This document shows, in pieces, positions 7,458 through 51,876 of a stretch of 51,876 bases of DNA (positions are counted from its first letter, which is position 1; the number at the start of each line of letters is the position of its first letter). The position numbers were made by a program, and so were the translations under genes. This stretch comes from Neocallimastix lanati (nom. inval.) (taxonomy: Eukaryota > Neocallimastigomycota > Neocallimastigomycetes > Neocallimastigales > Neocallimastigaceae), in NCBI GenBank assembly GCA_016946835.1, contig JACVTC010000169.1:287501-339376 (forward strand), written 5' to 3'. The notes beneath the pieces are model-generated. The model did no database searches. It was not told the DNA's origin and saw only the letters and a list, made by a program, of their open reading frames with translations.

Positions 7458-8087
7458 TATAATACTCTATATGATAATAATAATTATAACAGTAATTATA
7501 ATAACAATAATAATAATTATAATAATTTCTATAACAGTAATATTAATAGTAGCAATAATAGTAATTATAATAATTTCAATAACAGTAACAATAATAATAA
7601 TAATAATAATAATTTTGGTAACTATAATAATAATTACAATAATAATAATATTAACAATGGTAATTATAATTTTAGGAACAACAACAATAGAGGAAAAAAT
7701 AATTATAATAGCAATAATAATTATAATAATAACAATTATAGCAATAATAATTATATTAATAACAATTATAACAATAATTATAATAACAATAATATGTATA
7801 ATAACAATAATAATTATAATAGAAATAATAATTATAATAATAATAGTAATTATGGAAATAATAATTATAATAATAATAGTAATTATGGAAATAATAATTA
7901 TAATAATAATAGTAATTATGGAAATAATAATTATAATACTAATAATACTAATTATGACAACTATAACAATGATAACTACAATAATGCAAGAAATATTGAG
8001 GAAATAACAAATAAAAGTAATCCTAGGTACTTTGATAATCAAAATCCTCATCAGCAAAATATTAGAAGCGATAGCAATTTAAAATAG
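6595..8087 (+). pseudogene. Ty3-type gag, 5'-truncated and broken
   Basis: Gag of the copia-interrupted element. The capsid-like part (6607-6969) contains the motif IKNFNYRYLTLYHRLD. This aligns with IKDFNVRYRTLYTKLD in the intact gag at 48706-49614. About 70 N-terminal residues are missing, so there is no credible ATG. Two breaks follow: a frameshift in the A-run near 6951-6957 and a TAA stop at 7107. The downstream part (7110-8087) has a CCHC zinc knuckle (CYLCGEPGHKAREC) near 7216-7257, then a very long Asn-rich tract with Tyr and Ser. It ends at TAG (8085-8087) inside the -1 frameshift signal at 8078. It must be non-functional as it stands. Confidence 0.8.
7160..7975 (+). repeat. Asn-coding [AAT/AAC/TAT] tract in gag
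   Basis: About 800 bp of AAT/AAC codons interspersed with TAT, AGT and GGA, giving runs of Asn with NYN, NSNYGNN and similar motifs. Three tandem NSNYGNNNYNN units are evident near 7845-7935. The codon mix rather than one pure triplet shows it is an old, coding-maintained repeat. Confidence 0.8.
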
Positions 8088-8128
8088 ATTATGGGAGAAG
8101 GCCAACTTCCAGTAAACAAACCACCCTT
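8078..8128 (+). promoter_or_regulatory. -1 ribosomal frameshift signal (gag-pol)
   Basis: The gag frame reads AAT TTA AAA TAG, giving the slippery heptamer T-TTA-AAA at 8078-8084. A 7-nt spacer (8085-8091) follows, then stem TGGGAG (8092-8097), an 8-nt loop (8098-8105) and the closing strand CTTCCA (8106-8111, one G-U pair). Loop bases AAGG (8098-8101) can pair with CCTT (8125-8128) as an H-type pseudoknot. Pol is open in the -1 frame from here. The same layout is present in the 48.7-kb element. Confidence 0.8.
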
Positions 8129-8533: not shown

Positions 8534-8853
8534 TGTTGACTGCACTCATAATTTAACTATATATTTAATTTATTTATTTATAGTATTTATTTATATTTAT
8601 GTGTATTTATTTATTTATATTTAATGATTACTTAAATGTATTATGATCTATCGTCTTGTATAAATCTATGTTAATTATCTTTTAATATTTATTTAATTAA
8701 TTTTTAATTTATTTTATGTTATGGAAAACGCATGTTGTAACATGTGACTTTATTACTTATTTAAAGCCGAAAGATAGATCATACACTTATTTCCCTTGTA
8801 TACCATATTCCATAAGGAATATTATTATAGATCTAAATTTAATAAAGCTAACA
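8534..8853 (+). repeat. 5' LTR of the copia element
   Basis: 320 bp, TG...CA, essentially identical to 14502-14821. The copy begins inside what was an Asn-coding repeat of the host element. Confidence 0.95.
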
Positions 8854-8867
8854 GATTAAGAGTCTCA
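8854..8867 (+). other. Copia primer-binding site, half-tRNA type
   Basis: GATTAAGAGTCTCA begins at the base directly after the LTR. Its complement TGAGACTCTTAATC contains the anticodon loop CTCTTAA of tRNA-Lys(CTT) rather than a tRNA 3' CCA end. An identical 14-mer sits at 40219-40232 upstream of the second copia gag. Confidence 0.6.
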
Positions 8868-8928
8868 GTTGACTCATATTATTTATTATTAAAAGTACTT
8901 AATTAATTTGCTTCACCGCTCCAAAATC

Positions 8929-11900
8929 ATGCAAGACTTTAACTTAGCTAAGGACCAACGCCTCCATGGAAAATCCAACTTTAATGAGTGGAAATTCCTT
9001 ATTGACAATGCCGCTAAACGTCAAGGTATTAAGGAATTCATGGAAGTCGACGTCGTTGGAAAACTTAATGATGTAGGTTTTGATTACAACCCCAATGTCA
9101 ACGATGTTATCAACAAGGTAATTACTAAATTAATTACCAAAATGTTACCGCAAGCTCCTGCCGAACCTATTCGAAACAATAATGCTGAGGTTAATCGAAA
9201 CAATAATGTTGATATCAATACTCAGCTAACTAACTTTTTTGGTAATCCTCTTAATCATATCAGATTAGTTGAGGAAGCAGAAAGGATCGATGCTGACATG
9301 ATACTCATGATCAGTAAGAATGTCGATGATTCTGTTTTAAGAGAAATCAGCAGACTTAATAATGGTTTCCGTATAATGGAAAGACTCAAATCAAAATATG
9401 GAAATTCAAATGCTGATATGGAATACTGGCTTAAAAGATTAAGAAGTATTAAAGCCAGAGATAGAAATCAAATCATCGAAAAGCTAGAACTTATGAAAGA
9501 AACTTTCGATGATATGGAAGAACAACATGTGGAGATCACTGATAAGGAAAAATTAAAATATCTCTATAACGTACTACCGGATGATTATAAAAATATCATT
9601 CAAATTAATTTGAATAGTGACCCTAATGTATATATTAATAATCTCAAAAGTTTTATTTATGCAAAATCTTACCTAGAAAATTGGGAAGATAACAAAACCA
9701 TTGAAAAAGATGATCCAATGGATCTAGATTTTATCAGTAGAGGAAGAAGAACTAGTAATTCCTCAAAGAAAAGTGAACACAACAACCATAATAACAAAAG
9801 CTCTAACTCTAAGAAAAGAGGAAAGCAAAATGGTAACCAATATAACAATAATAATAAAGATAATAGTAACAAAGACAATAATAATAAATCATATTGTCAC
9901 ATTTGTGAAGTTAAAGGACACTCTACCAGAAACTGCATATATAATATGAAGACGAAGTCAAATCATAATAAAGGGAGGCAAGAAAAGCTTCAAGTAAAGA
10001 CCACATTAAATGATCATCCAAAGAAGTCTTTACATTTAATAAGTAAAATTTCTGATCCAGACAGTGCCAGTAGTTATGACGATAATTTTGATTTTGAAGA
10101 CGCAAGGGCACTGATAGAAAAACAAGAAGAAATAAACATTGACAATAAGGTTAAATTTTCTGGATTAATTGAATACGTGAATGATAGTTTTATTATTCCA
10201 AAGGAGATAACAATTCCTAATAAAAAAGAGGAATTATATGTAAACAACATCAATTATTATGAAGAAAATGATAAGACTAGTGAATGGTTATATGATACTG
10301 GTGCTGGAGAACATATAACTAATGATTTTAATTTGCTAAATAATTTTATTCACTGCAAAATAAAGTTAAGATGTGCCAATGGGACAATGTGTAGCTTCGA
10401 AGGATATGGTACTTACGAATGTTACATTAATGGAATATATTTACGACTAGACAAGGTATTATATTCAAAATCTGCAACTAAAAATCTTATTAGTGGAATA
10501 GAACTGGCCAAAATAGGATATAGAGTCATTATTGACACTGATGATTATACACGTGGTAGATTTAACTTATGGGGTCCAAATAATGTATATATAGGAACTT
10601 ATTATTCTACAAATGATAATCAATTCTTAGTAAATACTTACAAGATTAATAAAAACTTTGAAGAAAAGGATAAAAATATTATGGCTTTAAACGAAGTTGA
10701 TGAAAAAAGCCTTGAAATTTGGCATAGAAGACTAGGTCATTATTACCTAGAAAACATAAACAAATATCTAAGTTTACACCAAATAAAAACTCCTAAATGC
10801 ATAGAATGTAAAGTAGCTAAAATGTCAAGGAAATCACACGGAGGAAAAATACCGAAAGCTACGAAAATATTGGAAATAATACATTCAGACATTTCAGGTC
10901 CATACAATTCATCTATCAATAATAAAAAATACTTTATTACATTCATGGATGAATTCTCAAGAAAAGTATGGATATATACTTTAAAATCTAAAGCCGAAGC
11001 TCCCGAATTAATTGTGGAATTCTTCAAGTACTTAAATAACCAATTTGAAGAATATAATATTAAAATATTTAAATCAGATGGAGGAAAGGAATTTAAAAAT
11101 AAAACAGTTAATAAATACTGTAAAGAAAATGGAATAGAAAAAACCTATTCTCCTCCAGGTTGCCCTGAAGTTAATGGAAAAGCTGAAAGAATAAACAGAA
11201 CTCTTAGAAATTCAGCTAAAACTCTTCTATATTGGGCAGAATTATCAGAAAACTTTTGGAATTTCGCCATAAAACAGGCATGCTACATATATAACTTAAT
11301 TCCCCATTCAGGAAATAAATTTTTAATACCCAATGAAGTATTTTACAACAAAAAGGTAGAGTTAAAACATTTAAAAACCTTTGGTTGTGTGTGTTATTAC
11401 AGGGATGATACACAACACAAATCAAAATTTTTACCAAATGCTAAGAAGGGCGTATTCTTGGGATTTGATGATAAAAAATATTCATATATTATCATGGATA
11501 TTGAAAATAATAAAATACATTATACTAACGATGTAGAATTCGTTGAAGAAGAGCCTAGTAAACACAAATACGAAACAAGCAATTATAAAGACTCTTACTT
11601 CTCATTTATGAAAGACAACAATAGAAAAGATAGGAATCCAGAAGATAATATTATAAATGAAGAAAACAGTTTAAATGAAAATATTAATAATGAAAGGACT
11701 ACTAATACAGAACATAAAAGTAATTACATTAAAAATAAGCATGTCAATAATATATCGTTAAATGAAGAAAATCAAGAATTTGATAATAAAGATATAAACC
11801 AGAAAAATAACCATAATTTAAATAAAGATGTTGAAATTAATTCTAAAATTTATCCTGAAATTAAAAATAAAAATAATTGTGAATTTAAATTGAAATTCAA

Positions 11901-14481
11901 TTTCAACAATGTTGACAAAAATAATTCTGAAAATAGTTATTTGAATGAGATAAATAGAAATTTAGAAATAATAAATAAAAATTATAATAAAAAGTTTAGA
12001 AATAATACTAAGAATACCAATTTTAATTCTAACATTATTGAAAAATATAAACCAGAAGATCCTGCTTACGCCGCCTCAACTTCCAGCAGGAACAAAGGAA
12101 AAGAAAAAATAACCGAATTTGAAAATTTTGATAAAAATAAAATATTTTTAAATAATGAAAAATCAAGCCAAAATTTACAGAATTTTACAATAAATAATAA
12201 TAATATGAAAAAAAATTTTAATAATAAAAATTTTTCAAAAAATGATGAAAAAATTCAAGAAAATCTATTGGCTGAAGCAAAATCACATTCATATCATATC
12301 AAAAAATTTTCAAATAATTCAATAATTTCAAATAACACTAATGAATCACATATTACATATGACAACAATAATGATTCACATAAATCTATTAATAATTCAA
12401 ATAAATCAATGAATATCAAAAATTTTCCAAAAAATGATCAAAATTTTATTAATAAAAATTTTTTATCGAAATATAATAAATTAATTCAACAAAATTCAAA
12501 ATCCAGCGACTCTATGAAGAAAAACTATAATTTCTCCACTCCTACAATAGATATCAATAATATTCCTTCAGATAATAAAAATACGGTAATGGAAAATCTT
12601 AAAAATATAACTCTTCCATATAATATTAATCAGAATTTACCTTTAATAACCGATTCTTCAACCAACCAAATTTCTCAAAAAACAGACGAAATTTCACTTA
12701 CTAATAATAACGAAATAAATAATAAATTTAACAACAATAATATAATAAATAAAGAAAATTATGCCCACAAATCTCTTATAGATGCATCAAGTGTTATTGA
12801 TTTTAATAAAGATGAAATTATGGATGACATTGTAGCCAATACAGAATATGGCAATATCCATAAAAGACCACTTAGTCCAAAATATAAAGAGACTGCACCT
12901 ACTAATATTAGTTCTCGTAGAAAACTAGACCAAATCAACGACATTATTATTGCTTCTATATTTTGTCACATTCCTAATACGTATGAAGAAGCAATAAACA
13001 GTGAAGACAAAAATAACTGGATTGAGGCTATTAATGATGAACTTAATAACCTTTATTCTAATAATATTATGACTTTTGTTAAAAATGTACCTAAAAACAA
13101 GAACATCATTACCACAAAATGGGTTTTCAACACTAAACGTGATTCAAATAATAATATTTATAAATATAAAGCTCGTTTAGTTGCTCGTGGATTTAAACAA
13201 AAATGGGGAATCGATTATGAATTAACTTATTCTCCTACTCTAAACATTGATGGTCTTAAATTAATATTCGCTATTTCTGCTGCTCTTAAGTGGAATATTT
13301 TCCAGCTAGATATAAAGGCCGCTTACCTTAATGCTCCGCTTGATAAAGATATTTATACTACTATTCCTAAAGGCGATACACGCTTTGGGCGGGGATATTG
13401 GAAGCTCAACAAAGCTTTGTATGGCCTTAAGCAATCTGGTAGACAATGGTATAATACCATTAGAAAATTCCTAATAAAAAATGAGTTCATTCAAATTAAA
13501 TCCGAACAATGTATTTTCAAATGTACAAAAAATAATATAACAAAATGCATTATCGGCTTGTACGTGGACGACATGGTCATCGCTGGAGAAAACGAATACA
13601 TTAAACAAATAATAAATAAAATAAAATCAAAATTTAAAATATCTAAATGTGATCCAATTGAATACATATTAGGAATTGAAGTAAAGAAAGAAAATAATTC
13701 ATATATTATTTCACAGAAAAATTTTATAAATAATATGTTATATAAATTTAATATTGATAATACAAAGAAAAGAAAAACACCATGTACTGGTGATAATAAA
13801 ATATCAGAAAACAATAAACCTTTCGATAAAACAATCTACAAAAGCGCAATAGGTTCCTTAATATACCTTTCGAAATGTACTAGACCTGACATAGCTTTCG
13901 CTGTAAATAAAGCTTCAAGAAAATGTGAAAATCCAACTATATCGGATTGGAACAAAATAATAAATATTCTAAAATATATTAATAGTACCAAAGAATTTAA
14001 GATAGAATATAATGGAAAGGGGGAGCTTGTTGCATATACCGACTCTGACTTTGCCGGCTGTTTGGAAGATAGAAAATCTACCTCAGGAGGAATAATACTT
14101 ATGGGAACAAGTCCGATATGCTGGTTGTCCAAGAAACAAACAAGTGTTGCTACGTCTACTGCTGAAGCAGAGTACATAAGCACTTCCGAAAATATAAAGA
14201 AAATATTATGGATTAGAAATATAATAAAAGAAATTTTAAACAAATGGATAACTGTTAAAATCTATACAGATAATCAAGCAAGTAAGAAAATAATGGAGAA
14301 CGGAGAAATAAATACAAAATTAAAGCATATAAGTGTAAGATATCATTTCAACAGGGACAATATTGCAAAGAAGAAAGTAAAATTAGAATATATTGATACT
14401 GAAAACATGCTAGCGGACATATTAACCAAGGACTCAAATGGACCAAAGATACAAAAATTTACAAACAACATTTTTATCTAA
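8929..14481 (+). CDS. Ty1/copia Gag-Pol polyprotein
   Basis: 1850 residues from the first ATG; the frame is open slightly upstream but lacks another ATG. Order: copia Gag (1-~250); zinc knuckle CHICEVKGHSTRNC (~aa 323); aspartic protease YDTGAGEH (Asp456). Integrase follows with an HHCC finger (HRRLGHYY...CIEC) and D654, D717, E753 with exact D-x35-E spacing. An Asn/Lys/Ser-rich linker of ~400 residues precedes reverse transcriptase (KARLVARGFKQ, FQLDIKAAYLNAPL, LYVDD with Asp1547-1548). RNase H (YTDSDFAG, TAEAEY, IYTDN, ADILTK) is last. Integrase-before-RT order defines Ty1/copia. No frameshift separates gag from pol, so the Gag:Pol ratio must be set otherwise. All key residues are present. 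Confidence 0.95.
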   Translation: MQDFNLAKDQRLHGKSNFNEWKFLIDNAAKRQGIKEFMEVDVVGKLNDVGFDYNPNVNDVINKVITKLITKMLPQAPAEPIRNNNAEVNRNNNVDINTQLTNFFGNPLNHIRLVEEAERIDADMILMISKNVDDSVLREISRLNNGFRIMERLKSKYGNSNADMEYWLKRLRSIKARDRNQIIEKLELMKETFDDMEEQHVEITDKEKLKYLYNVLPDDYKNIIQINLNSDPNVYINNLKSFIYAKSYLENWEDNKTIEKDDPMDLDFISRGRRTSNSSKKSEHNNHNNKSSNSKKRGKQNGNQYNNNNKDNSNKDNNNKSYCHICEVKGHSTRNCIYNMKTKSNHNKGRQEKLQVKTTLNDHPKKSLHLISKISDPDSASSYDDNFDFEDARALIEKQEEINIDNKVKFSGLIEYVNDSFIIPKEITIPNKKEELYVNNINYYEENDKTSEWLYDTGAGEHITNDFNLLNNFIHCKIKLRCANGTMCSFEGYGTYECYINGIYLRLDKVLYSKSATKNLISGIELAKIGYRVIIDTDDYTRGRFNLWGPNNVYIGTYYSTNDNQFLVNTYKINKNFEEKDKNIMALNEVDEKSLEIWHRRLGHYYLENINKYLSLHQIKTPKCIECKVAKMSRKSHGGKIPKATKILEIIHSDISGPYNSSINNKKYFITFMDEFSRKVWIYTLKSKAEAPELIVEFFKYLNNQFEEYNIKIFKSDGGKEFKNKTVNKYCKENGIEKTYSPPGCPEVNGKAERINRTLRNSAKTLLYWAELSENFWNFAIKQACYIYNLIPHSGNKFLIPNEVFYNKKVELKHLKTFGCVCYYRDDTQHKSKFLPNAKKGVFLGFDDKKYSYIIMDIENNKIHYTNDVEFVEEEPSKHKYETSNYKDSYFSFMKDNNRKDRNPEDNIINEENSLNENINNERTTNTEHKSNYIKNKHVNNISLNEENQEFDNKDINQKNNHNLNKDVEINSKIYPEIKNKNNCEFKLKFNFNNVDKNNSENSYLNEINRNLEIINKNYNKKFRNNTKNTNFNSNIIEKYKPEDPAYAASTSSRNKGKEKITEFENFDKNKIFLNNEKSSQNLQNFTINNNNMKKNFNNKNFSKNDEKIQENLLAEAKSHSYHIKKFSNNSIISNNTNESHITYDNNNDSHKSINNSNKSMNIKNFPKNDQNFINKNFLSKYNKLIQQNSKSSDSMKKNYNFSTPTIDINNIPSDNKNTVMENLKNITLPYNINQNLPLITDSSTNQISQKTDEISLTNNNEINNKFNNNNIINKENYAHKSLIDASSVIDFNKDEIMDDIVANTEYGNIHKRPLSPKYKETAPTNISSRRKLDQINDIIIASIFCHIPNTYEEAINSEDKNNWIEAINDELNNLYSNNIMTFVKNVPKNKNIITTKWVFNTKRDSNNNIYKYKARLVARGFKQKWGIDYELTYSPTLNIDGLKLIFAISAALKWNIFQLDIKAAYLNAPLDKDIYTTIPKGDTRFGRGYWKLNKALYGLKQSGRQWYNTIRKFLIKNEFIQIKSEQCIFKCTKNNITKCIIGLYVDDMVIAGENEYIKQIINKIKSKFKISKCDPIEYILGIEVKKENNSYIISQKNFINNMLYKFNIDNTKKRKTPCTGDNKISENNKPFDKTIYKSAIGSLIYLSKCTRPDIAFAVNKASRKCENPTISDWNKIINILKYINSTKEFKIEYNGKGELVAYTDSDFAGCLEDRKSTSGGIILMGTSPICWLSKKQTSVATSTAEAEYISTSENIKKILWIRNIIKEILNKWITVKIYTDNQASKKIMENGEINTKLKHISVRYHFNRDNIAKKKVKLEYIDTENMLADILTKDSNGPKIQKFTNNIFI

Positions 14482-14490
14482 AAATATTAT

Positions 14491-14501
14491 TTGAGGGGGA
14501 G
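14491..14501 (+). other. Copia polypurine tract
   Basis: TTGAGGGGGAG lies immediately 5' of the TGTTGAC start of the 3' LTR, the standard site for plus-strand DNA priming. Confidence 0.85.
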
Positions 14502-14821
14502 TGTTGACTGCACTCATAATTTAACTATATATTTAATTTATTTATTTATAGTATTTATTTATATTTATGTGTATTTATTTATTTATATTTAATGATTACT
14601 TAAATGTATTATGATCTATCGTCTTGTATAAATCTATGTTAATTATCTTTTAATATTTATTTAATTAATTTTTAATTTATTTTATGTTATGGAAAACGCA
14701 TGTTGTAACATGTGACTTTATTACTTATTTAAAGCTGAAAGATAGATCATACACTTATTTCCCTTGTATACCATATTCCATAAGGAATATTATTATAGAT
14801 CTAAATTTAATAAAGCTAACA
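14502..14821 (+). repeat. 3' LTR of the copia element
   Basis: 320 bp, one substitution relative to the 5' LTR (14734), followed by the ATAAT target duplication. Confidence 0.95.
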
Positions 14822-29826: not shown

Positions 29827-29916
29827 TTTAAAATCGAAAAGTATAGCCGTTTTAGGGTATCTTGTTATAGTGTCTAGATAGAGGTTATAATAAAAGATTT
29901 CCCTATTATTAATGTT

Positions 29917-33733: not shown

Positions 33734-35168
33734 TTATTTTAAATTAATATTTATATCGTTTAAATCAATTAAACATTCTTTCCATAACTTAATTAATTCA
33801 TTTCTGTTACATCCATTATAAAATAAATTTATTTCCTTACTTTTGTAATTTTCAATTAAAATTTTAATTTCATAAGTTGCACTAAATATTTTTTGCTTTT
33901 TTTTCCAATTTCCTTTAGTTCTCCTTTGATAATCATTATAAGATAAGTTTTCTTCTTCTTTTAATATATATATTAATTTATAAAATAAAGGTTTATTTGG
34001 AAATATATTATTTAAGTAGCTATTATAAGATTCTGATGCATTGTTTGTTAAATGCTCTATATTTTCATAATAATTCCAATTATTAACATTATACTTAAGT
34101 AAATAATTTTTATTAAAATATTCTAAAAATTGCAGAAAATTATTATACTTTTTTTTGACAAATTCTTTTTATTATAATATAAATATCAAATATATAGTTA
34201 GGGTTTATAAACGGTAAGTTCGAAATAGCTTTATAATAAATATATACATCATTATTATTCTTCACTTCATGATAACATAATATATTTTTTTGTTTTTCTA
34301 ATGATCTTTTGTAATGCCAAACACAATATTTAATATTTATATTGGGAAAATCTTGTCTTGCGGCATTAGATATACCTTGTTCAAAATCACAATGAAAATT
34401 AATTGTAGTAATTAATGCATTACTCCTAAATTTATTTGCATTTTTTTTTATTTCTTTAAATAATGTTTCATATGTAGATTGTTTTTTATTTTTTAATATA
34501 GAAATGGAAGTAGTGTAAAACATATTAAATTCCCCAACATAAGTTTTTGTTATAAATAACTGATAACTAAATTTCGGTGCTGCATAAAATGTACCGTCCG
34601 CAAATATATTTTTATGATAATTCGAAAATAAATATGCTTGGAATGGTGATTGAAAGATTATTAGATCAGTATTTTTAAATATCATAAAATTTTCATTTCT
34701 TTTCGTTTTATAATATTCTGATTCAATGGAAATATCATCAAAACTTTTTATGTTTAGAGGAAATTGTTTATTTATATTTCTTATTATTTGGGATCTAATT
34801 GTACTATATTCGGGACATATAAGTCCCATTTCTTGAGAAACGGCATTAAATATATGTTTAGGTTTTATATCCATAGGAATTGAATTTTTCTTAATTTCTT
34901 CCTTAATTTTATGCTTTGCTACTGATATAGACACATCAATTTCTTTTTCGAGATGGTTATGTAAACTTTCATATTTTAAAACCTCCTTTTTATCATTTAA
35001 AATAATTAAAGATTTACATTTATTTAAAGTCTTATATTCAGTGCATCTATAAATTTTTGATTTATCTTTCCTTTGAAATGAAAAATTAAATTTGTGTTTT
35101 TTATTAATAATAATTTGTTCATTTCCTCGATTTGTTTCACTTATTTCAATTTCTATATTGTCTTCCAT
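33734..35168 (-). pseudogene. FLYWCH-MULE transposase, frameshifted
   Basis: The first ORF (34143-35168, 341 aa) has an N-terminal FLYWCH-type zinc finger (YRCTEY..LNKCKSL...HNH, ~aa 38-72). The MULE transposase core follows: FADGTFYAAPKFSYQLF (first catalytic Asp), FHCDFEQGISNAARQDFP (second Asp), then the C-x-x-H signature CVWHYKRSLEK. It closes in an A8 run at about 34148-34156. The next frame continues with TNNASESYNSYLN, the conserved C-terminal MULE motif, to a stop at 33734. A one-base indel in the A-run accounts for the break; a sequencing error is possible. The enzyme would bind the inverted repeats of the surrounding element. Confidence 0.85.
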
Positions 35169-35871
35169 TAATAATTAAAATTTTTCAATAAAATATTTTA
35201 ATAAATATACTTTTAAATGCTTTGAAACTTTTTTTTTTAATATTTAAAATAATAAACCTTTTTTTAATTAATTATATAATTATTTAAATAATTATTAATT
35301 ATTAATTATTTATTATTTCTTTATTTACTATTTTATTTATTTATTTTTATTTTTTATTTTTTATTTATTTTATTTTTTTTATTTTTTAATGCTTAAAAAA
35401 TAAATTTTTATTTATTTTTATTTTATTTTTTAATGTTTAAAAAAGAAGTTTTCTTATTTCTTATTTTTTTTTTATTTTTTAAGCATTAAAATATAAAATT
35501 TTTATTTATTTTTTATTTTATTTTTCAATGTTAAATAGAAATACCTAACCTAATTATTATTTATTGAAATGTTGTATTTCGCCAAAAGTTGAATTTCGTC
35601 CAGTTGAATTTCGCCAAATTCTAGGTGGCTTATTAATTTTTGTCATAAAATATCACCACATTTATTATTCACGCCATATTGGGAATATATGGCTTTTTAA
35701 AAATTGTAGAAAAAAACCACAAAATTATGTTACAATTAGATCTACGCCCCACGTAAGATTACGTGTTTGAAAATTTTTGAGAATTGTAATTTTATTTATT
35801 TAATTAATTAATTATTATTCATTAAATTTTTAATAAATTTAAGTGGCTTAAATTTAAAAATATTTAAGCCA
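35169..35871. other. MULE promoter-side interior
   Basis: No gene. It contains T-rich runs, three imperfect GTTGAATTTCGCCAA-type repeats (35571-35622) and a perfect 16-bp palindrome CACGTAAGATTACGTG (35750-35765). These may be subterminal transposase-binding sites, although that is inference from position only. Confidence 0.45.
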
Positions 35872-40232: not shown

Positions 40233-40420
40233 TTTGTACTCTTAACATTCTCATAAAACAAAAATAAAATAATATAAAATATCTTTAATAAAATAAAATA
40301 ATAATTAAATAAAATATAAATAAAATTGTTTAATATAACACAAAATTGTTTTTAATAAAACACAAAATCATTATAATACTAATTTTAAATTAAAATAAAA
40401 AAAAAAATAATAAAATATTT

Positions 40421-40987
40421 ATGAACGAATCCTTATTTTTCAAAAAGGAAGCCATATTGAATGGCAAAAATTATAACAAATGGTATGATAGTTTAAAAGA
40501 TGTCCTCGAAAAGGATGGCTTAGGGGAATATCTAATAAAGGATGTAGTAAAAGAAAAAGAAAAGGCCACGAATAGTAATGCGGACGATATAGAAAATGCA
40601 AAAAGGAATAATACAAAAGTCCGCTACATCATAAAAAATACCATAGGTACCAAAATTTATGAGGACATAATCGGAATGACTACCCCTCGTGAAATAATCG
40701 AATATTTAGAAGGGGAGTACAAACTCAACGAAAACGATATGACTCAATGGATGAATAAATTAAGAGAGGTAAAAGCGAAGAAAGAGGAAGATATTCCATT
40801 TACCTTAAAAAGACTATTTAAATTATTTAAAGGTATGGAATCTTCCGGAAATAATATTTCTGAAAAGGAAAAAGTTAAATACATATTAAAATCATTGCCT
40901 ACATGTTACAAAAAGAAAATAACATTAAATAGCAATGAAACTGCTGAAAATCTTAGGACCACCATCGTAAACGACATAAATACCTGA
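40421..40987 (+). CDS. Ty1/copia Gag fragment
   Basis: A 188-residue ORF that starts at ATG and resembles the N-terminal Gag of the complete copia element: ILNGKNYNKWYDSLK (compare RLHGKSNFNEWKFLI), MTQWMNKLREVKAKKEEDI, and KVKYILKSLPTCYKKKI. It ends at TGA 40985-40987, where homology to copia stops. The following bases continue in the same frame into Ty3-type sequence. The zinc knuckle and all of pol are missing, so it is a truncated relic joined to an unrelated element. Confidence 0.7.
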   Translation: MNESLFFKKEAILNGKNYNKWYDSLKDVLEKDGLGEYLIKDVVKEKEKATNSNADDIENAKRNNTKVRYIIKNTIGTKIYEDIIGMTTPREIIEYLEGEYKLNENDMTQWMNKLREVKAKKEEDIPFTLKRLFKLFKGMESSGNNISEKEKVKYILKSLPTCYKKKITLNSNETAENLRTTIVNDINT

Positions 40988-40999
40988 ATTTATGTCGAC

Positions 41000-42303
41000 G
41001 ATGTTACCCAAAATGGAAATGTCTCTGATGATCTAGCAGAAGACACCAGAAATAATTATAACAAGAAGCATTGGTTAGAAGTAGATGGTCTTCTGGTTAG
41101 AAAAGAAAACCGTGAACAAATTTACATGCCCACAACGTTCAGGAAAACAATTATACAACTAAACCATGATTCGGAGTACGCAGGACACTTGGGAATTGAT
41201 AAGACTTCGGACCTAGTATCTAGGAATTTCTACTGGCCGAAGATGAGAAAGGATATATCAGGCTACGTGAAAGCTTGTAGAACTTGCGCTACCAAGAAGG
41301 ATGATCGCTATAAAGAATATGGCACTGCGGTAAGAAATCCGGTTGCAGAATTACCCTGGCAAGAGGTACAGTTAGATTTTATAACGAATCTGCCAGTGAA
41401 AAGTAGAGTAAGGACTGATAACGGTTATGTTTGGGAAACGAAGAGAGCAGGTTGTATTTTAGTATGCTGCGATAAATTAACCAAGATGATACACCTGATA
41501 GGATTCAAACATGTGCCCAATACTAACGAGACTGCTGACGCATTCCTAAAGGAAATTTACAGGTTGCATGGATTCCCCAAAGTGGTTACAACTGATAGAG
41601 GAGTTCAATTTACAAGTCAAGTATGGAAGGAGCTACTAGAGTTCTTCGGAACTGAAGTAAATCATGCTACCACTAGTCACCATGAGACAGTAGGCCAAGT
41701 AGAAAGGAACAATGCCTATGTAGAAACTTATTTACGATGCTTTGTGGGAACCTACGATAATGAAAGCTGGATGGACTATTTATTTTTAGCAGAGTTCTGT
41801 TACAATAATGCAATCCACGCTTCTACCCAACAATCTCCCTTCCTTACTTTATATAACTACCAGGTACACAACTCCCCAAAAACAGCTGACTTAGTGCACT
41901 CATTAGGCGAAGCAAAAATGATTGACAGTTTTGCTCACAACTTAGGAAACCTAAAGCACATTTTGGAGATCGCCCAAACAAGATACCTGGATAACATGGA
42001 TAGGACTCATACGGATAACTACCCCCAAATATGTACCCCGTGTTCCATGTGAGTGAATTGGAACCATTTTATAAATTACCCAAAACATTAGTGCCGGTTC
42101 CTGCGGGAAACCAAAAGATAATTCATATCCTTGGATCGAGGAAACACCAAGGATAGTATCAATATCTGGCTGCATACCAGAATGATAAACAAGAGTGGGT
42201 CAACGCCGACGTGATCGACGACAATCCTCACTATGCTGAATTGCTAGAGGATTACCAAGATTTTAGTTATAGCCAGTTCATCGCTAACGTCGTCAACCAT
42301 TAG
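41000..42303 (+). pseudogene. Ty3 chromovirus integrase with C-terminal chromodomain, broken
   Basis: The main ORF is 41126-42052, with the frame open from 41000. HHCC zinc finger: LNHDSEYAGHLG...CRTCATKK. Catalytic core: VQLDFITNLP (Asp), TTDRGVQFTS (Asp), then GQVERNNAYVE (Glu). After DNMDRTHTD the SH3-like C-terminal segment seems deleted. In another frame YPVFHVSELEPFYKLP begins (42031), followed by a chromodomain-like stretch (IIHILGSRKH, YQYLAAY, EWVNADVIDDNP) interrupted by TAG (42151-42153) and ending at TAG 42301-42303. The chromodomain classes it as a chromovirus. The segment is visibly richer in G+C than its surroundings. No RT of this element is nearby. Confidence 0.8.
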
Positions 42304-43500: not shown

Positions 43501-43836
43501 AACATAAAACTATCTTTAAAAAATACAGAAACTTATTAATTGTTCTTTTAAATGTATAATGTACAAAATAAATAAAACTAATTTTTACATTAACTTGATA
43601 ATTAAATGAATAACTAAATAAAATTAATAATATTAATAAAAGAATATATAATAGTTATTTAAATAAATTTTTTAATATTATTTTAGTGTATGAATAATTA
43701 TATTTTTAATATATTTGATAATAATATTTCAATGTATGAATTAATTATAATTTAAATAAATTTATAATTATTATCAATAATTATAAAGACTAAGTAATTA
43801 TTTATTAATAAATAATTATTATTTCTTACACAGAAA

Positions 43837-44149
43837 TGTTAAGGTTTTAGAGAATTAAATAAAAATAAAATAAGAAACACAAATTTTATTTATTTATTTA
43901 TTATTTTTTTTATTTGATTTTATTTGATTAATTTTACTTTATTTTATTTGATGATTTTTAAAAATTGGTAGCAAAATTTACAACTATTTATACTTTTTTC
44001 AAGGCATAAAAGTTATTCTTGCCACTAAATTACATTTTATTTATTTTTTTTTTTAAAAAAACTATTAAATTTAAATTGAATTTTATAATCAGTTATATAA
44101 AATTTAATTATAACAATATAAATAAAATACATTTATAATATTAATAAAA

Positions 44150-44201
<52 letters not shown>

Positions 44202-44689
44202 CTATCTAAAATATTACTAATAAGAATTTATTTAATTGGCTATATTTTTTATTACAATCTGTTAAAATATTCAAATAAAAAATAAAAATACTATTCTAAT
44301 ATAAAGGTTTTTAATAAAATAAAATATTTTTCAATATAAAATAAAACATTTCGATATAAAATTTTATAATAAAAGTTAAAATATAATATATAAATTTTTA
44401 ATTATCAATATATAAAAATATTATTAATACAAATTTTCATTATTAATATAAAAATAGAAAAAGTAAGATTTATTATTAATATTGCTAATATAAGTTTTAA
44501 ATATATAAAAATATTACTATTAATATACGATTTAATATAAAATTATAAAGTTTAATATAATTTTTGATTTAATTTTTAATCTTTGAATTTAAAAATTTAT
44601 TAAAGTACAAAAATAATAATGTACACATAATGTATTAGAAATAAATCGTAGATTTAATTAAGAATGCATTATTTAGTACATTCTTATCA
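43837..44689 (-). repeat. LTR-C, 3' LTR of the 44-51 kb element
   Basis: 853 bp beginning TGATAAGAATG and ending CCTTAACA on the minus strand. It is a direct repeat of 51068-51876 with few differences, mainly in homopolymer length (T-run 44152-44196 versus 51385-51418). TATAAATAG at 43984-43992 (minus strand) is a probable promoter TATA box, present also at 51215-51223. Confidence 0.9.
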
Positions 44690-44700
44690 AGATGCCCCGA
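44690..44700 (-). other. Polypurine tract of the LTR-C element
   Basis: TCGGGGCATCT on the minus strand lies directly before the 3' LTR start and 7 bases after the pol stop codon. It is short and not purely purine, so the assignment rests on position. Confidence 0.55.
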
Positions 44701-44707
44701 CGAAGAC

Positions 44708-47700
44708 TCAAGCTTCTCTGTAAGCGGAGTTAAACTTTACTAAATTTTTAAAATGAACATTCCTATCGAGTTGTTTCCCAGTTTTCTGATCGATTAAGGT
44801 TGCCGTGTTGAATTGAATTTTTAAAATTTTAAATGGTCCATTGTAATATGGTTCTAGCTTAGTGCGGCTAAAGTTTCTAACAAGAACAAGATCACCAGCC
44901 TTTAATTCTTTTCCTTTTTTCATACTTATTTGTTCTTCTCGTCTTGTTGCCCAATACTTGTTAGCATTCTTCACATTTTCGCATGCTTCTCTAGTCCATT
45001 GATAATGACGAACAAATTTTTCCATTAAAATTTCATCATACGATTTACCTGCATTTTCAATTGTTCTTATGGATATATCATAATGCTGTTGGTCTTCTCT
45101 TCCATATACTAATTCAAAACTAGAATGTCCGGTAGCTGTGTTTTTGGTAGTTCGAAGTGCCCATAAAGCAGAAGGTAAAACTTCATCCCAATCTTGATTT
45201 TTCCTTCCTAATAAACGAAGCAATTTTCCAATTTCTTTATTTCGGTTTTCAGTGAGACCATTGGATTCAGAGTGATAGGTAGCTATGAATTTTACATAAA
45301 CATCATAAAGATCAAGAAAGATTTTAGTCATATCAGAAGTGAATTGGACTCCATTATCCGTAGTAATAACTTGAGGCACACCATGTCTTGCAAAAACGTT
45401 TATTAAAAATTTAATTATATCAGAGGAAGTTATGTTTTCAGCGGGTTCGGCTTCAACCCATTTGGTAAAGTAATCAACAGTTACTATAATATATTGATTA
45501 TTATTTCTTGTTTTTGGTAACGGTCCTATAATATCTAATCCTAAATGCACAAAGGGACCCTCCACTTTAGTTGGATGGTTTTCGGTTGGTTCTGGATATG
45601 GTTGAGGACGATTTAACTGGCATTTTTCACAATTACTAACAATTCTTTTGATATCTTTAATCATATGATTCCAATAAAAGTTTTTCTTAAGTCTTTGATA
45701 TGTTTTGTAATATCCTTCGTGGCCAATATTACGAGCTTCTAAAATTAATTTAAACCTTTCATTTTCGTCCGTTATTAATTTTCTATAATTTCCATTGTCG
45801 ATAAAATAATCTTCACCATCAATAACAGTAAACTTTTCATTAATAAATTCCTTTATAACTTTAGATAATAATTCTTCATTATTTCCATTAGTAATTTTTG
45901 TTAATAATATCTTTCTCTCTTCCTTACTTTTCATTCTTGAAAGAGCATCAGCTAACACATTCTTTTTGCCTGATTCATATTTTATATTAATTCCGAGCAT
46001 ACTAGCGGTTAGACACCATCTTGTTTGCCTTGCATTCAAAGGTTCTTTATTCTTAAATAAACCAACTAATGGTTTATGATCTGTGTAAATAGTTGTAGGT
46101 AATGGATTTCCTTCAATATAAGATTTAAATTTAGTCATATAGTAAAACAAAGCGGTTCCTTCTAAATCGGTAATACCATAATTCTTTTCAGCTTTCTTTA
46201 AACTCCTACTTATAAAGTGTATTGGATGCTCCTTACCGGTTTCTTCTTCTTTTTGTAAAAGAACTCCACCAATTCCATTATACGAAGCATCAGTTCTAAT
46301 GATAAAAGGTTTGTCAAATGACGGAAATTTTAGAATAGGTGCATTGATTAATTTTTCTTTTAGGAGTTCAAAGCTTTCTTGTTGTTCTTTATTCCATTCA
46401 TATTTAGTATTCTTTTTCAATAATTTACATAAAGGTGAGGTAATTTGAGCATATTTAGGAATAAAGTCACGATAATATCCTATTGCTCCTAGAAATGATC
46501 TTAATTCATGAATTGATGAAGGGGCTTCCCACTTCTTAATAGCTGTTATTTTACTTTCCATGGGACTTAATCCTTTAGTAGTAAGTTTGTGACCTAATAC
46601 ATCAACTTCAGTTTGAAGAAAATGGCACTTTTCAATATTAATTTTTAACTTGTTTTCTTTAAATACTTCTAATACTTGTTTAATATGAATTAAATGTTCT
46701 TCGATACTTTTTGAATAGATCAAAACATCATCAATAAATACATAAACAAATTCACCAATAAAAGGGAATAAAATTTTATTCATTTCTCTTTGGAAGGTTG
46801 AGGGAGCTCCAGTAAGTCCAAAAGGCATAACCTTAAATTGATAATTTCCAAACTTAGTAGTGAAAGTGGTTACTTCAACGCTTTCTTCATCCATTAAGAT
46901 TTGGTGAAAACCCGAAAATAAATCAAGAGTTGTAAATATTTTAGCTCCTCCGAGACTATCAAAAATTTCATCTATATGTGGAACTGAATAAGAATCTTTT
47001 TCTGTCATATCATTGACTTTTCGGTAGTCAATGCACAAGCGCCACTTTCCATTGTGTTTTAGAATAAGTACTACTGGAGATGACCATTCTGAACAGGATG
47101 GTTCTATCAATCCTTTCTTAATAAGTTTTGTAAGTTCTTCTTTTAAGATATCTGATTTTAATTTAGTTAACCTATAACTTCTTAATTTTACTGGCTTTGA
47201 ATTTGCTTTTAAACGGATCTTATGTGGTGAAAGTTTAGAAGGAGTTAGTTCTTCTGTTGAAGTGGCAACTATGTCAATCATTTCTTTGAGAATTTTAATA
47301 ATTTGTTCTTTATAATCTTTATTTAAGGTACTTAAAAATTCATCACTCTCAATAAATTCCATTGGAGTTAATTCCTTTATAATTTCCTTTTCATTATTCG
47401 TTTCTTTAACTTTTCTAATAGTGCAAATTATACTTTCTTCATCATAATATTGATTATTTATTTTAGCTATTTCTTCGTATTCACTTTCTGACAAAAGTTT
47501 ACATAAACTGTTTAAGGTCGGATGAATAAATAAACAATGATCGATTTGAGTTTTAAAGTTTATTAACATATCATAAAAAGAGTCTTCTTTCTCAATAATT
47601 CTAAAGTCCGCATTAAATTCATAATTATTAATTTTTACTGGTAATCGAACAATAATTCCTTCCGAGTATTCTTCATCTTGTGTTGCTAGTTGGATTCTTC

Positions 47701-48718
47701 CACGACTTTTTCCAACTGTTTCATATTCACCAGGTAATTTATCAAAATACTGCTTAGTAACGATGCTTAGGTTACTACAAGAATCAATTAAAAGTTTTCC
47801 TAGTACTCCGTCAACACTTGCATCAACCATTGCTAAGTCTTCTTCGGCTACTTCATTACTTTTACTTATGTAACTATGATCATAGTTATTTACTAATAAA
47901 GTTCGTGCTATTATATTGTCTACAGTTCCAATTATTTTTGATTTTTCTAACTTTAAACCTTGAGTTAATTTTGAACGAATTTTCGGACATGCATTCAAGA
48001 GTTGACCTATCGTAATACTGGATTTAAGATTATTTAAATCATCCATAATATTGTAAGGTTCTTTATTATTCATCATTTTGATATTCCTTTTTACTAACTG
48101 AGTATTTCCATTATTAGTTTCTTTAGTTTTTGTTGAAATTAATTTTTCCAAAGTATTAGTTTTATTTTGTTGATTATCTTTATTCATTTCTAGATCTTCT
48201 ATTTCATTATCGATTACAAGTATATCTTCAGATTCAACTTTTTCCTTTCCTTTTGATGAATAATTGTTGTTTTCTTCTTTACTTTCTCTTACTCTTGTCA
48301 TATTTCTTAATTCCTTTTCTTTTTGTTTTTCTTTGTTAATATTTGGTTGAGTTAAAATTGAAGGAAGTATTTGATTTTTATAAACTTTATTTGGTTTATT
48401 ATGTAGCTCATTTTCTTTCTTCTTTCTTAAAGCAGGAGTTGCGAAAGGACGTGGATTATCTTTTAAACTTTTATGTACTTTCTTGGAATTATTTTCTTCT
48501 TTTTCGCTGTTATTATCATTCATTTTTCTTTTTATAGCATTTATAATGATATCATCCTCACTTTCAGTTGTGTCACTAAAATCAGATTCTTCAGATTCTT
48601 CATTAAAGGAATTATTATCAATTGGAGTATTCTTAGTAAAAGTATTATTTTGTAAATTATTTAATGAAGCTATTGTTTTGTCATTGGGAGTGCTTCTGCT
48701 CCCATTTAGAAGTTTAAA
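44708..48718 (-). CDS. Ty3-type Pol: protease, RT, RNase H and integrase
   Basis: The frame is open from the slippery site at 48712-48718; the first internal ATG is at 48523, from which it would be 1271 aa. It is therefore probably made as a Gag-Pol fusion by -1 frameshifting. Domains (numbered from 48523): protease-like LLIDSCSNLSIVT (Asp ~247, DSC not DSG); RT with FTTLDLFSGFHQI, MPFGLTGAPSTFQREMN and catalytic YVFIDDVLIYS (~597). RNase H has RTDASYNGIGG, TDLEGTALF, YTDHKPL and VLADALSR. Integrase has a zinc finger (GHEGYYKT...CEKCQ) and catalytic LGLDII, TTDNGVQF, GLTENRNKE with D-x35-E. The usual first His of the HHCC finger appears as Arg (EARNIGHEG). A short SH3-like C-terminus (LKAGDLVLVRNFSRTKLEPYYNGPFKIL) and no chromodomain follow. 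No stops: the best-preserved Ty3 element here. Confidence 0.92.
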   Translation of the reverse strand, partial: FKLLNGSRSTPNDKTIASLNNLQNNTFTKNTPIDNNSFNEESEESDFSDTTESEDDIIINAIKRKMNDNNSEKEENNSKKVHKSLKDNPRPFATPALRKKKENELHNKPNKVYKNQILPSILTQPNINKEKQKEKELRNMTRVRESKEENNNYSSKGKEKVESEDILVIDNEIEDLEMNKDNQQNKTNTLEKLISTKTKETNNGNTQLVKRNIKMMNNKEPYNIMDDLNNLKSSITIGQLLNACPKIRSKLTQGLKLEKSKIIGTVDNIIARTLLVNNYDHSYISKSNEVAEEDLAMVDASVDGVLGKLLIDSCSNLSIVTKQYFDKLPGEYETVGKSRGRIQLATQDEEYSEGIIVRLPVKINNYEFNADFRIIEKEDSFYDMLINFKTQIDHCLFIHPTLNSLCKLLSESEYEEIAKINNQYYDEESIICTIRKVKETNNEKEIIKELTPMEFIESDEFLSTLNKDYKEQIIKILKEMIDIVATSTEELTPSKLSPHKIRLKANSKPVKLRSYRLTKLKSDILKEELTKLIKKGLIEPSCSEWSSPVVLILKHNGKWRLCIDYRKVNDMTEKDSYSVPHIDEIFDSLGGAKIFTTLDLFSGFHQILMDEESVEVTTFTTKFGNYQFKVMPFGLTGAPSTFQREMNKILFPFIGEFVYVFIDDVLIYSKSIEEHLIHIKQVLEVFKENKLKINIEKCHFLQTEVDVLGHKLTTKGLSPMESKITAIKKWEAPSSIHELRSFLGAIGYYRDFIPKYAQITSPLCKLLKKNTKYEWNKEQQESFELLKEKLINAPILKFPSFDKPFIIRTDASYNGIGGVLLQKEEETGKEHPIHFISRSLKKAEKNYGITDLEGTALFYYMTKFKSYIEGNPLPTTIYTDHKPLVGLFKNKEPLNARQTRWCLTASMLGINIKYESGKKNVLADALSRMKSKEERKILLTKITNGNNEELLSKVIKEFINEKFTVIDGEDYFIDNGNYRKLITDENERFKLILEARNIGHEGYYKTYQRLKKNFYWNHMIKDIKRIVSNCEKCQLNRPQPYPEPTENHPTKVEGPFVHLGLDIIGPLPKTRNNNQYIIVTVDYFTKWVEAEPAENITSSDIIKFLINVFARHGVPQVITTDNGVQFTSDMTKIFLDLYDVYVKFIATYHSESNGLTENRNKEIGKLLRLLGRKNQDWDEVLPSALWALRTTKNTATGHSSFELVYGREDQQHYDISIRTIENAGKSYDEILMEKFVRHYQWTREACENVKNANKYWATRREEQISMKKGKELKAGDLVLVRNFSRTKLEPYYNGPFKILKIQFNTATLIDQKTGKQLDRNVHFKNLVKFNSAYREA
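48666..48718 (-). promoter_or_regulatory. -1 ribosomal frameshift signal (gag-pol)
   Basis: The gag frame reads TCT TTA AAC TTC TAA, giving the canonical heptamer T-TTA-AAC (48718-48712). Then come a 7-nt spacer, stem TGGGAG, an 8-nt loop (CAGAAGCA) and the closing strand CTCCCA. Loop GAAGC can pair with GCTTC 14 nt further on (48670-48666), forming an H-type pseudoknot. Pol is the -1 frame. The same geometry is found at 8078-8128. Confidence 0.85.
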
Positions 48719-49614
48719 GACTTTTTGGAATATATTTCTTTTTTATTTTTTTCCATAATCTTATTTAATTGAGGGCAATAGTATGAGTAATGACCTTCTT
48801 CCTTACAGAAGAAACAAGTTTTAACGGATAAATTTCTCATTTTCTGGGTTGATTCTTCTATAATATCTTGAGGTTTCGGTTTATTATTTGTTTGACTTGT
48901 TTGGAAAGTTTCGTTTCTTCTTTTAGGATAAAGTCTTGAAGTAGTACTTTTTTGATTATTTTGATTATGCTGGGAATTATTAACATTATAGGTATTAATA
49001 TTATTGTTCCTTACAGAAAGTCTATCTACTTTCTCGGCAATTTTGAAAGCTTTATCCATACTTATATCATCTTTAAGGGATAATTTCTTCCAGGCTTCAT
49101 AATTATTTTGAATAGAATCAATATAATCTAGTACACCAATGCGCTTTCTTCTCTTTTTATCAAGTTTAGTGTACAAAGTTCTATATCTTACATTAAAGTC
49201 TTTAATCTTTTCGTTTCTTTTAATTCGCATTGCACGAAGTTCTTTAAGAAGTAAATTTTGGTCTTCTTTAATACCGTAAAAATTTTCAAGACTTGAAATA
49301 ATTTTTTCAAGGGAAGGAAATTTAATATCATCATCAACATTTTCTTCTTCATCATCTTCTTCTTCATCTGATGAATCATCACTTTCATCATCACTATCTT
49401 CTCCCAAATCTTCAATAACGCGTTGTACTTCACCAGAGCTGGTAAGTAAACAAGCATTAAATATTGTTTCTGGATCTGTGATACCTTGTATCTTGATCCA
49501 AAGTTTCAATTCAGTAGCCCAGGACTTAATATCTAAATTATCCTTGCTAAGTTTCACAATATCTCTCAATTCTTTTTTCAATTCTTTAAAGCTCAAAGTT
49601 GTTTCTTTGGACAT
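48706..49614 (-). CDS. Ty3-type Gag with CCHC zinc knuckle
   Basis: 302 residues from ATG at 49612-49614 (MSKETTLSF); the frame is open a little upstream without an ATG. The capsid-like region has WATELKLWIKIQGI, an acidic Asp/Glu/Ser run (~aa 75-100), then KIKDFNVRYRTLYTKLDKKRRKRIGVLDYI, shared with the gag remnant at 6607. The C-terminal part is Asn/Gln-rich with a single zinc knuckle CFFCKEEGHYSYYC. The stop TAA (48706-48708) lies two codons past the slippery heptamer. It should form the virus-like particle shell and bind element RNA. Confidence 0.9.
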   Translation of the reverse strand: MSKETTLSFKELKKELRDIVKLSKDNLDIKSWATELKLWIKIQGITDPETIFNACLLTSSGEVQRVIEDLGEDSDDESDDSSDEEEDDEEENVDDDIKFPSLEKIISSLENFYGIKEDQNLLLKELRAMRIKRNEKIKDFNVRYRTLYTKLDKKRRKRIGVLDYIDSIQNNYEAWKKLSLKDDISMDKAFKIAEKVDRLSVRNNNINTYNVNNSQHNQNNQKSTTSRLYPKRRNETFQTSQTNNKPKPQDIIEESTQKMRNLSVKTCFFCKEEGHYSYYCPQLNKIMEKNKKEIYSKKSLNF

Positions 49615-49768
49615 TTTGTCTAAATATGAGGTGATTAAATACAAATAAATTTGGGAAATCCAACTTTCAAAATATAATTTAATAGGTAATTTAATATCGA
49701 ATCAATTTTTAAAACAATATATTTTAGTAACTTTTGAAAATAATAATTTTATTTGCTTTCTTTAGTAG

Positions 49769-50040
49769 ATATAAGCTCGAAATCCTTATCGACAACTTAG
49801 TAGAAATTATAAAGCACGAGGTTCTTTTCGACTACTTTATTAAGAATAATTTTAAGTTCGAAATCTTTATCGACAACTTAATAGAATAATTTTAAGTTCG
49901 AAATCTTTATCGACAACTTAATAGAATAATTTTAAGTTCGAAATCTTTATCGACAACTTAATAGAATAATTTTAAGTTCGAAATCTTTATCGACAACTTA
50001 ATGGAATAATTTTAAGTTCGAAATCTTTATCGACCACTTG
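49769..50040 (-). repeat. 40-bp tandem repeats in the leader
   Basis: Exact 40-bp period with unit starts at 49861, 49901, 49941, 49981 and 50021, recognised by AAATCTTTATCGACAACTTA. A diverged copy starts at about 49779. The central copies are nearly identical (one A/G difference at 50003). Confidence 0.9.
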
Positions 50041-50620
50041 AATTTTGTAATTTAGTATATTTGTAGTAATAAATTTAGAAGCAAAGTTTTATTTATTATT
50101 TTCACCTTTCAAAAATTTTTCTTTTTAAACGATAAATATTGTATTGTTATAGCTAATAAAATTATTAATTAATTATAATTATTAAATACAAAAAAAATAA
50201 TCTTTATTGTCGTACAATCTGATAGTACACACTGTCTGACGTGCAGCTTACCTAATGGTGTCATGCCACGCGTGTGCCACGATTACTATATTCAATATAA
50301 AATATAGCAGTTCAGAGCCCACTAGCCCAATTACTATGTAGGATAAACTTAATCCGATAATCTATGTACGGAATAAAAAAAATTTTAAAAGTATTCAATA
50401 ATATTTTTATTAACTAATAAAAATTAGCTAAAAACACAATATTTTCAAAGTAAATTAAGATTCTATTACAGGAATTATATAACAAATAAAGTACCAGTAA
50501 TAAAGAAAAAAAAATAAAAAAATTTAAATGGCGAAGTTAGCCAAAGTCTGATACTTTATATAATAAAGTGCCTTATAACTAGCACAAAGAAAAATAAAAA
50601 AAATATAAAAAAAAAACAAT

Positions 50621-50750
50621 CTTACGCCTTCGGTGACGTAAGCTCCTTATTCGCCAGTGCTTGGAAAGTACCCGCACCTTCGTGTGTTGAAACGTTGAAG
50701 ACTGAACTATTATTACCGGGTCGGTAACCAAATACCTTCGTCTACTTTCC
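50621..50750 (-). other. Structured less AT-rich island
   Basis: Inverted repeats: CTTACG / CGTAAG (50621-50642) around CCTTCGG; an outer 8-bp pair GGAAAGTA (50663-50670) / TACTTTCC (50743-50750); and inside it TTACC-GGGTC-GGTAA (50713-50727). The motif CCTTCG recurs three times. It may be an RNA structure of the element's leader or a nested small element. Confidence 0.4.
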
Positions 50751-51044
50751 AATTAATTCCCAAAATAACTATTATCCAATAACCTACTATGAATAATAGA
50801 TATTTTGTTGTTTTCTGGAAATACACTGTATATGAGCTCTATCCGCTCCTTGTTATAATTTACAATCTTTTTTTTTAGAATCTTAATTTTACTTATTTTA
50901 AAAAAAAAAATTTTTTTTTTTTTATATATATATCAAACAAGCGCCATAGGTTAATCAAAGGATTAACGACTTACTTGTTTATCAATATAAAATAAAAAAA
51001 AATTAAAAAAAATCTATGTTATTTACTATTATTTTTATTTAATT

Positions 51045-51061
51045 CCCCGATATCTCCACCA
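51045..51061 (-). other. Candidate primer-binding site, LTR-C element
   Basis: The minus strand reads TGGTGGAGATATCGGGG starting 6 nt after the 5' LTR. TGG complements a tRNA 3' CCA, and the rest would match a tRNA ending TATCTCC-A-CCA. The tRNA species could not be assigned. Confidence 0.55.
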
Positions 51062-51067
51062 TATAAA

Positions 51068-51380
51068 TGTTAAGGTTTTAGAGAATTAAATAAAAATAAA
51101 ATAAGAAACACAAATTTTATTTATTTATTTATTATTTTTTTTATTTGATTTTATTTGATTAATTTTACTTTATTTTATTTGATGATTTTTAAAAATTGGT
51201 AGCAAAATTTACAACTATTTATACTTTTTTCAAGGCATAAAAGTTTTTCTTGCCACTAAATTACATTTTATTTATTTTTTTTTTAAAAAAAACTATTAAA
51301 TTTAAATTGAATTTTATAATCAGTTATATAAAATTTAATTATAACAATATAAATAAAATACATTTATAATATTAATAAAA

Positions 51381-51422
<42 letters not shown>

Positions 51423-51876
51423 CTATCTAAAATATTTACTAATAAGAATTTATTTAATTGGCTATATTTTTTATTACAATCTGTTAAAATATTCAAATAA
51501 AAATAAAAATACTATTCTAATATAAAGGTTTTTAATAAATAAAATATTTTTCAATATAAAATAAAACATTTCGATATAAAATTTTATAATAAAAGTTAAA
51601 ATATAATATATAAATTTTTAATTATCAATATATAAAAATATTATTAATACAAATTTTCATTATTAATATAAAAATAAAAAAAGTAAGATTTATTATTAAT
51701 ATTGCTAATATAAGTTTTAAATATATAAAAATATTACTATTAATATACGATTTAATATAAAATTATAAAGTTTAATATAATTTTTGATTTAATTTTTAAT
51801 CTTTGAATTTAAAAATTTATTAAAGTACAAAAATAATAATGTACACATAATGTATTAGAAATAAATCGTAGATTTA
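51068..51876 (-). repeat. LTR-C, 5' LTR (cut by the window end)
   Basis: Direct repeat of 43837-44689. About 30 bases of its U3 start are expected beyond the window. It shares the TATAAATAG box (51215-51223). The near-identity of the two LTRs suggests a fairly recent insertion. Confidence 0.88.

Follow-up and report, generated by a model that had tools for sequence, protein, structure and literature searches.

According to the available part of PMC5009743, pol lies in the -1 frame in 28 of the 51 animal LTR elements surveyed, many of which have classical heptamers, and fungal elements are mixed. The same source describes a pseudoknot-stimulated frameshift in PEG10, a gene derived from Ty3/gypsy, and +1 shifting without classical slippage in yeast Ty3. 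Gypsy elements of Verticillium likewise carry pol in the -1 frame, as stated in the accessible text of PMC3441728, and the word "frameshift" is absent from a broad survey of LTR elements in fungi (PMC3248453). The accessible portions of PMC5009743 and PMC3441728 describe no covariation series of the stimulator for those LTR retrotransposons. For retrotransposons of anaerobic or rumen fungi, we found no report of frameshifting in the partly available open-access literature, a body of text outside which most subscription journals lie.

Here we describe a gag-pol junction in Neocallimastix lanati. With PEG10, compared by description only and as far as the available text of PMC5009743 goes, it shares Ty3/gypsy descent, a putative -1 frameshift joining gag-like and pol-like frames, and a predicted pseudoknot stimulator; PEG10 differs in being a single mammalian gene. 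The likeness to animal and some fungal LTR retrotransposons is that pol lies in the -1 frame (PMC5009743, PMC3441728, both in part). Yeast Ty3 belongs to the same superfamily and also uses frameshift recoding between gag and pol, but its shift is +1, whereas the one proposed here is -1 (PMC5009743, available part). Since pol in -1 is described for animal and fungal LTR elements and a pseudoknot for PEG10, the kind of signal is already known.

Organization of the focal element

The window, i.e., the whole 51,876-nucleotide stretch of DNA that was analysed, has a GC content of 22%; a minus-strand Ty3/gypsy element occupies its end. The main features of this element are as follows:

43834-51876, minus strand: focal Ty3/gypsy LTR retrotransposon, from its LTRs and pol domains
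51065..51876, minus strand: 5' LTR, reaching the window end, from LTR comparison
48706..49701, minus strand: gag open frame, stop to stop, from the open-frame list
44708..48742, minus strand: pol open frame, 1344 aa, entry near 48718, from the open-frame list
43834..44656, minus strand: 3' LTR, 98.06% identical to 51065-51876

The two LTRs differ by 3 mismatches and 4 gap openings. Between them, Pfam places the pol domains in Ty3 order (RVT_1, RNase H, integrase zinc-binding, rve), so that the element combines LTRs with reverse transcriptase, RNase H and then integrase, the arrangement that defines Ty3/gypsy. A Pfam search of gag gave 0 matches; by eye, a zinc-knuckle-like Cys/His motif lies near the gag C-terminus. 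A candidate primer-binding site that starts with TGGTGGAGATATCGGGG lies immediately inside the 5' LTR, at about 51046-51064 on the minus strand, and a 40-bp unit is repeated in approximately five head-to-tail copies at 49843-50042, 5' of gag.

Among 11316 first-look genome candidates, the 35 that were scored with the focal pol were all 99-100% identical to it and had no internal stop, so the family has moved recently. Of the public proteins matching residues 1-500 of the focal pol (n = 14), one was 99% identical and 13 were 45-55% identical; the N-terminal peptide of one public protein (P0007) resembles the pol-frame junction. Other mobile-element pieces occur in the window at 23687-24727, 26272-29961, 34143-35174 and 40394-42052, comprising two frames with reverse transcriptase, a MULE transposase that has a FLYWCH domain, and a Copia-type gag next to a Ty3-type integrase.

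The focal gag-pol junction

The gag and pol frames of the focal element overlap, pol lies in the -1 frame, and a heptamer sits at the overlap. Read 5' to 3' along the element, the junction consists of the following parts:

48712..48718, minus strand: slippery heptamer T TTA AAC in the phase X XXY YYZ, by direct reading
48705..48711, minus strand: 7-nt spacer containing the gag stop TAA (48706-48708), by direct reading
48699..48704, minus strand: 5' strand of the 6-bp stem 1, TGGGAG, with covariation at position 1
48691..48698, minus strand: 8-nt loop CAGAAGCA, in which 48692-48696 is the stem 2 5' strand GAAGC, by direct reading
48685..48690, minus strand: stem 1 3' strand, CTCCCA, by direct reading
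48671..48684, minus strand: crossing loop of 14 nt, A-rich, by direct reading
48666..48670, minus strand: 3' strand of the 5-bp stem 2, GCTTC, from type B pairing counts

The arrangement is that of a -1 signal: the X XXY YYZ heptamer is in zero-frame phase, and the gene that follows is in -1. Gag stops at TAA, the second codon past the heptamer.

A second Ty3 element lies on the opposite strand of the window, with its junction at 8078. An earlier note on this DNA, made from the sequence alone, had described X-XXY-YYZ heptamers with pol open in -1 in both elements, and coordinates and frames bear this out in each. The 7-nt spacing, the TGGGAG stem, the 8-nt loop and the closing strand (CTCCCA in the focal element, CTTCCA at 8078) were also found exactly where the note had placed them. 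Its remark that the two elements are far apart in sequence agrees with our comparison: their reverse transcriptase regions are 54% identical, pol is 37% identical over 855 positions, and the gags show similarity over 32 residues only.

Spacing of heptamer and stem across the genome

Pattern searches covered the host genome (199 Mb, 762 contigs). At least 150 CBM_10 (dockerin-type) domains were scored in this genome vs none across 14 control genomes, which, with the 22% GC of the window, suggests an anaerobic gut fungus. The pattern TTTAAAC-N7-TGGGAG had 646 matches, compared with a single match when the pattern was reversed. A pattern in which both distances could vary (TTTAAA N3-14 GGGAG N4-13 CTCCC) had 1137 matches vs 0 in the control; among the 100 matches listed, 99 had the reported spacing (32 distinct strings in all), and the remaining one had its stem shifted inside the same span. 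Two more patterns gave 346 vs 1 and 438 vs 0. Counts so far above their controls rule out a chance origin.

A stem-only pattern returned 1108 matches vs 2 in the control. Because a fully paired stem gives the same letters on either strand, the 100 stem-only matches listed include 44 antisense ones; among the 56 sense matches listed, TTTAAA[ACT] stood exactly 7 nt upstream in 55, and in the sole exception (L054) the heptamer was 7 nt farther upstream of the stem. A scan of IMG/VR with the heptamer-stem pattern yielded 2 matches.

Covariation in stem 1

From the first 100 matches listed per search, junctions were hand-picked for variety, giving 67 distinct 80-nt junctions that fall into 21 families at 75% identity, all from one genome and with the families related to each other. 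Two classes were distinguished: type B, with 39 junctions including the focal one, and type A, with 28 including that at 8078. L054, with its displaced heptamer, and L022, a match to heptamer and half-stem without a closing strand, were excluded from the 67. Some positions of stem 1 and of the heptamer are set by the search patterns and were kept out of the conservation counts; stem 2 was in none of the patterns.

Position 1 of stem 1 covaries. It was Watson-Crick paired in 23 of 39 loci vs 8.6 after shuffling (P 5e-5), by G-C in 11, T-A in 5, A-T in 5 and C-G in 2, and was unpaired in the other 16. With one locus per family, 10 of 12 were paired (3.3 expected), and in a slid control the true partner paired in 46 of the 67 junctions vs 8 to 33 when the columns were moved by 1 to 3. 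At position 4, which the search pattern restricts to purine/pyrimidine, the 67 junctions had G-C in 40, G-T in 14, A-T in 11, A-C in 1 and G-A in 1. One 14-copy family has changed position 3 from G-C to A-T; apart from this family, variants at the other stem 1 positions were near chance (54 vs 50 in the control). In both types, covariation supports stem 1 as an RNA structure within 5-9 nt downstream of the heptamer.

Gag stop and pol phase

The gag stop falls within the spacer in 65 of the 67 junctions, as the first codon past the heptamer in 34 and the second in 31, and the pol phase is open across the 80 nt in 62. In the available part of a study on HIV-1, a stop artificially placed right after the slip site allowed eRF1 to compete with -1 slippage (PMC4373837). 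The two cases are alike in having a stop codon straight after the heptamer; the HIV-1 stop is artificial, whereas here it is natural in the first group of junctions and comes one codon later in the second. That the spacer stop is natural and nearly constant suggests that termination competes with slippage, and non-shifting ribosomes may exit before unwinding the structure.

Stem 2 in type B

Loop-downstream pairing of at least 5 Watson-Crick pairs was present in 32 of the 39 type B junctions, vs 9.6 with swapped partners and 2.25 after dinucleotide shuffling; among family representatives the figure was 7 of 10 vs 1.5 expected (P 0.002). At least five unrelated sequences build this stem: GAAGC/GCTTC, GCAAT/ATTGC, TCAAT/ATTGA, TGTACT/AGTACA and GAACGTT/AACGTTC. 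Loop position 3 is its commonest start (20 of 36 junctions with at least 4 pairs). Stem 2 is shortened to 4 pairs in L079 and L084, has only 3 pairs in L100, and requires G-U pairs in L088 and L080.

Pairing between loop and downstream sequence is thus kept across relatives, as expected of an H-type pseudoknot, and a -1 frameshift pseudoknot is a well-supported prediction for the focal class. Comparing other genome copies, as the earlier note had proposed, brought out covariation in stem 1 of both types and in stem 2 of type B. Its -1 signal and its pseudoknot with GAAGC/GCTTC pairing in the focal element have support from covariation, from the swap controls and from the phase.

The second element and type A

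The second Ty3 element is interrupted by a Copia insertion:

7110-8087, plus strand: gag frame with zinc knuckle, from open frames and Pfam
From 8075, resuming at 14746-18531, plus strand: pol frame, from open frames
8078..8111, plus strand: type A junction, i.e., TTTAAAA, spacer TAGATTA with the TAG stop, TGGGAG, AAGGCCAA and CTTCCA, by direct reading
8117..8122, plus strand: CAAACC, kept in 26 of 28 type A junctions
8534..14821, plus strand: Copia element nested in pol, from its LTRs, RVT_2 and the target repeat ATAAT

The Copia LTRs (8534-8853 and 14502-14821) are 320 bp long and 99.7% identical, and the insertion is flanked by the 5-bp target repeat ATAAT. Insert and repeat together make 6293 bases, 2 modulo 3, which agrees, by arithmetic only, with the frame in which pol resumes.

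Across the 28 type A junctions, loop-downstream pairing was at the level of chance (a mean of 2.79 bp vs 2.84 swapped and 2.88 shuffled). At least 5 stem 2 pairs were present in 2 of 28, and the only contact still conceivable across these relatives is an invariant GG/CC. The 4-bp stem AAGG/CCTT proposed at 8078 was rejected, CCTT being present in two type A junctions, 8078 itself and the near-identical L057. At 8078, then, the heptamer and stem 1 of the earlier note stand and its second stem does not, and its idea of one conserved pseudoknot common to both elements is not supported by the type A pairing counts.

What type A does conserve is AAGG in the loop (27 of 28) and CAAACC downstream (26 of 28), together with the pol-frame codons AGG (27 of 28) and ACC (26 of 28), both minority codons in the two pol genes of the window. 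In 14 type A elements with reverse transcriptase sequence, AGG was used in 14 and ACC in 13; in the reverse transcriptase and RNase H region of the same elements, the 70 invariant degenerate columns included 1 with a single codon. This difference rules out protein-level constraint alone and places AAGG...CAAACC under RNA-level constraint. The invariance of AAGG/CAAACC is itself unable to demonstrate pairing. A GG/CC duplex taken on its own has a computed energy of +0.8 kcal/mol.

Tentatively, type A may be a different -1 stimulator that evolved from a full pseudoknot within the same radiation. The AAGG loop of a 6-bp hairpin would then form a compact fold with the A-rich CAAACC downstream through the two GG/CC pairs and A-rich contacts between loop and stem 1, with termination at the adjacent stop setting the Gag:Gag-Pol ratio. 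We regard this as possible but doubtful. Plant luteovirus frameshift pseudoknots have small stems and an A-rich crossing loop; in most type A junctions stem 2 would have no more than two adjacent G-C pairs, and the likeness is a lead only.

Other Ty3 clades in the genome

The RNase H family PF17919 was listed at 150 places, and 13 junction regions were examined. Since none of these 13 loci was of type A or B, conservation of the heptamer was assessed from the stem side only. In four loci (L039, L040, L043, L045), gag ends with A AAA AAC and an immediate stop, and RNase H lies in -1. Three of them (L040, L043, L045) have a 7-bp hairpin with a 4-nt loop 7-8 nt downstream, and L039 folds differently; the hairpin pattern of this clade had 186 genome matches vs 0. 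In three other loci (L044, L046, L047), a gag-like frame is in phase with the RNase H match. At L050 the gag-like frame closes, RNase H lies in another phase, and the region has no TTTAAA[ACT]; this is either a broken copy or a different shift. The five remaining regions missed the junction. The genome thus holds -1 elements that use two different slip sites and two or three kinds of stimulator, side by side with one-frame elements.

Discussion

From the frames and their phase, the fixed geometry and the covariation of both stems, we infer that a Ty3/gypsy retrotransposon very probably carries, at the focal site, a signal for programmed -1 ribosomal frameshifting that is stimulated by a pseudoknot. 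Most ribosomes would translate gag and terminate at the stop one or two codons past the slip site. A minority would pause at the H-type pseudoknot 7 nt downstream (a 6-bp stem 1, a stem 2 mostly of 5 to 7 bp, and an A-rich crossing loop), move back by one base on U UUA AAC, and enter pol. The product would be a small share of Gag-Pol, and the nearby stop may help to set the ratio of Gag to Gag-Pol.

A real -1 shift could also be stimulated by the stem 1 hairpin alone, with stem 2 dispensable. Type A fits such a design, stem 2 being at chance among its 28 junctions (of 67), as does the plain 4-nt-loop hairpin at three of the four sampled AAAAAAC-clade loci, and HIV-1 is able to use a simple stem-loop according to the accessible part of a review (PMC3321566). 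For the focal class we consider this unlikely, as type B retains stem 2 through unrelated sequences on one strand together with their partners on the other.

It is highly improbable that pol is reached by re-initiation, an internal start or splicing, with the RNA structure serving another step, e.g., packaging. A precedent exists in Candida Tca2, where, in the available text, a predicted junction pseudoknot, for which the authors report no evidence, gave no readthrough in S. cerevisiae reporters (PMC2194720). Such routes fail to account for an X XXY YYZ heptamer fixed 7 nt from the structure, or for pol lying in -1. That conservation reflects the pol N-terminal peptide or common ancestry, with RNA pairing incidental, is scarcely credible: type A does retain the pol-frame peptide GRRxT...QT and the junction families are related, but the near-fixed AGG and ACC are minority codons set against 1 of 70 single-codon columns, and stem 2 varies on both strands across families.

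With programmed -1 frameshifting at a pseudoknot as the preferred reading of the focal class, the novelty lies in a large natural series with covariation from a single genome, in a sister class that shows no visible stem 2, and in a spacer stop that is nearly constant. Many diverged natural versions of the junction occur side by side in this genome, with fixed spacing and varied second stems; the paired shape is kept and the letters have changed. The series is suited to asking what a stimulator requires, and whether a stop beside the slip site tunes the product ratio.
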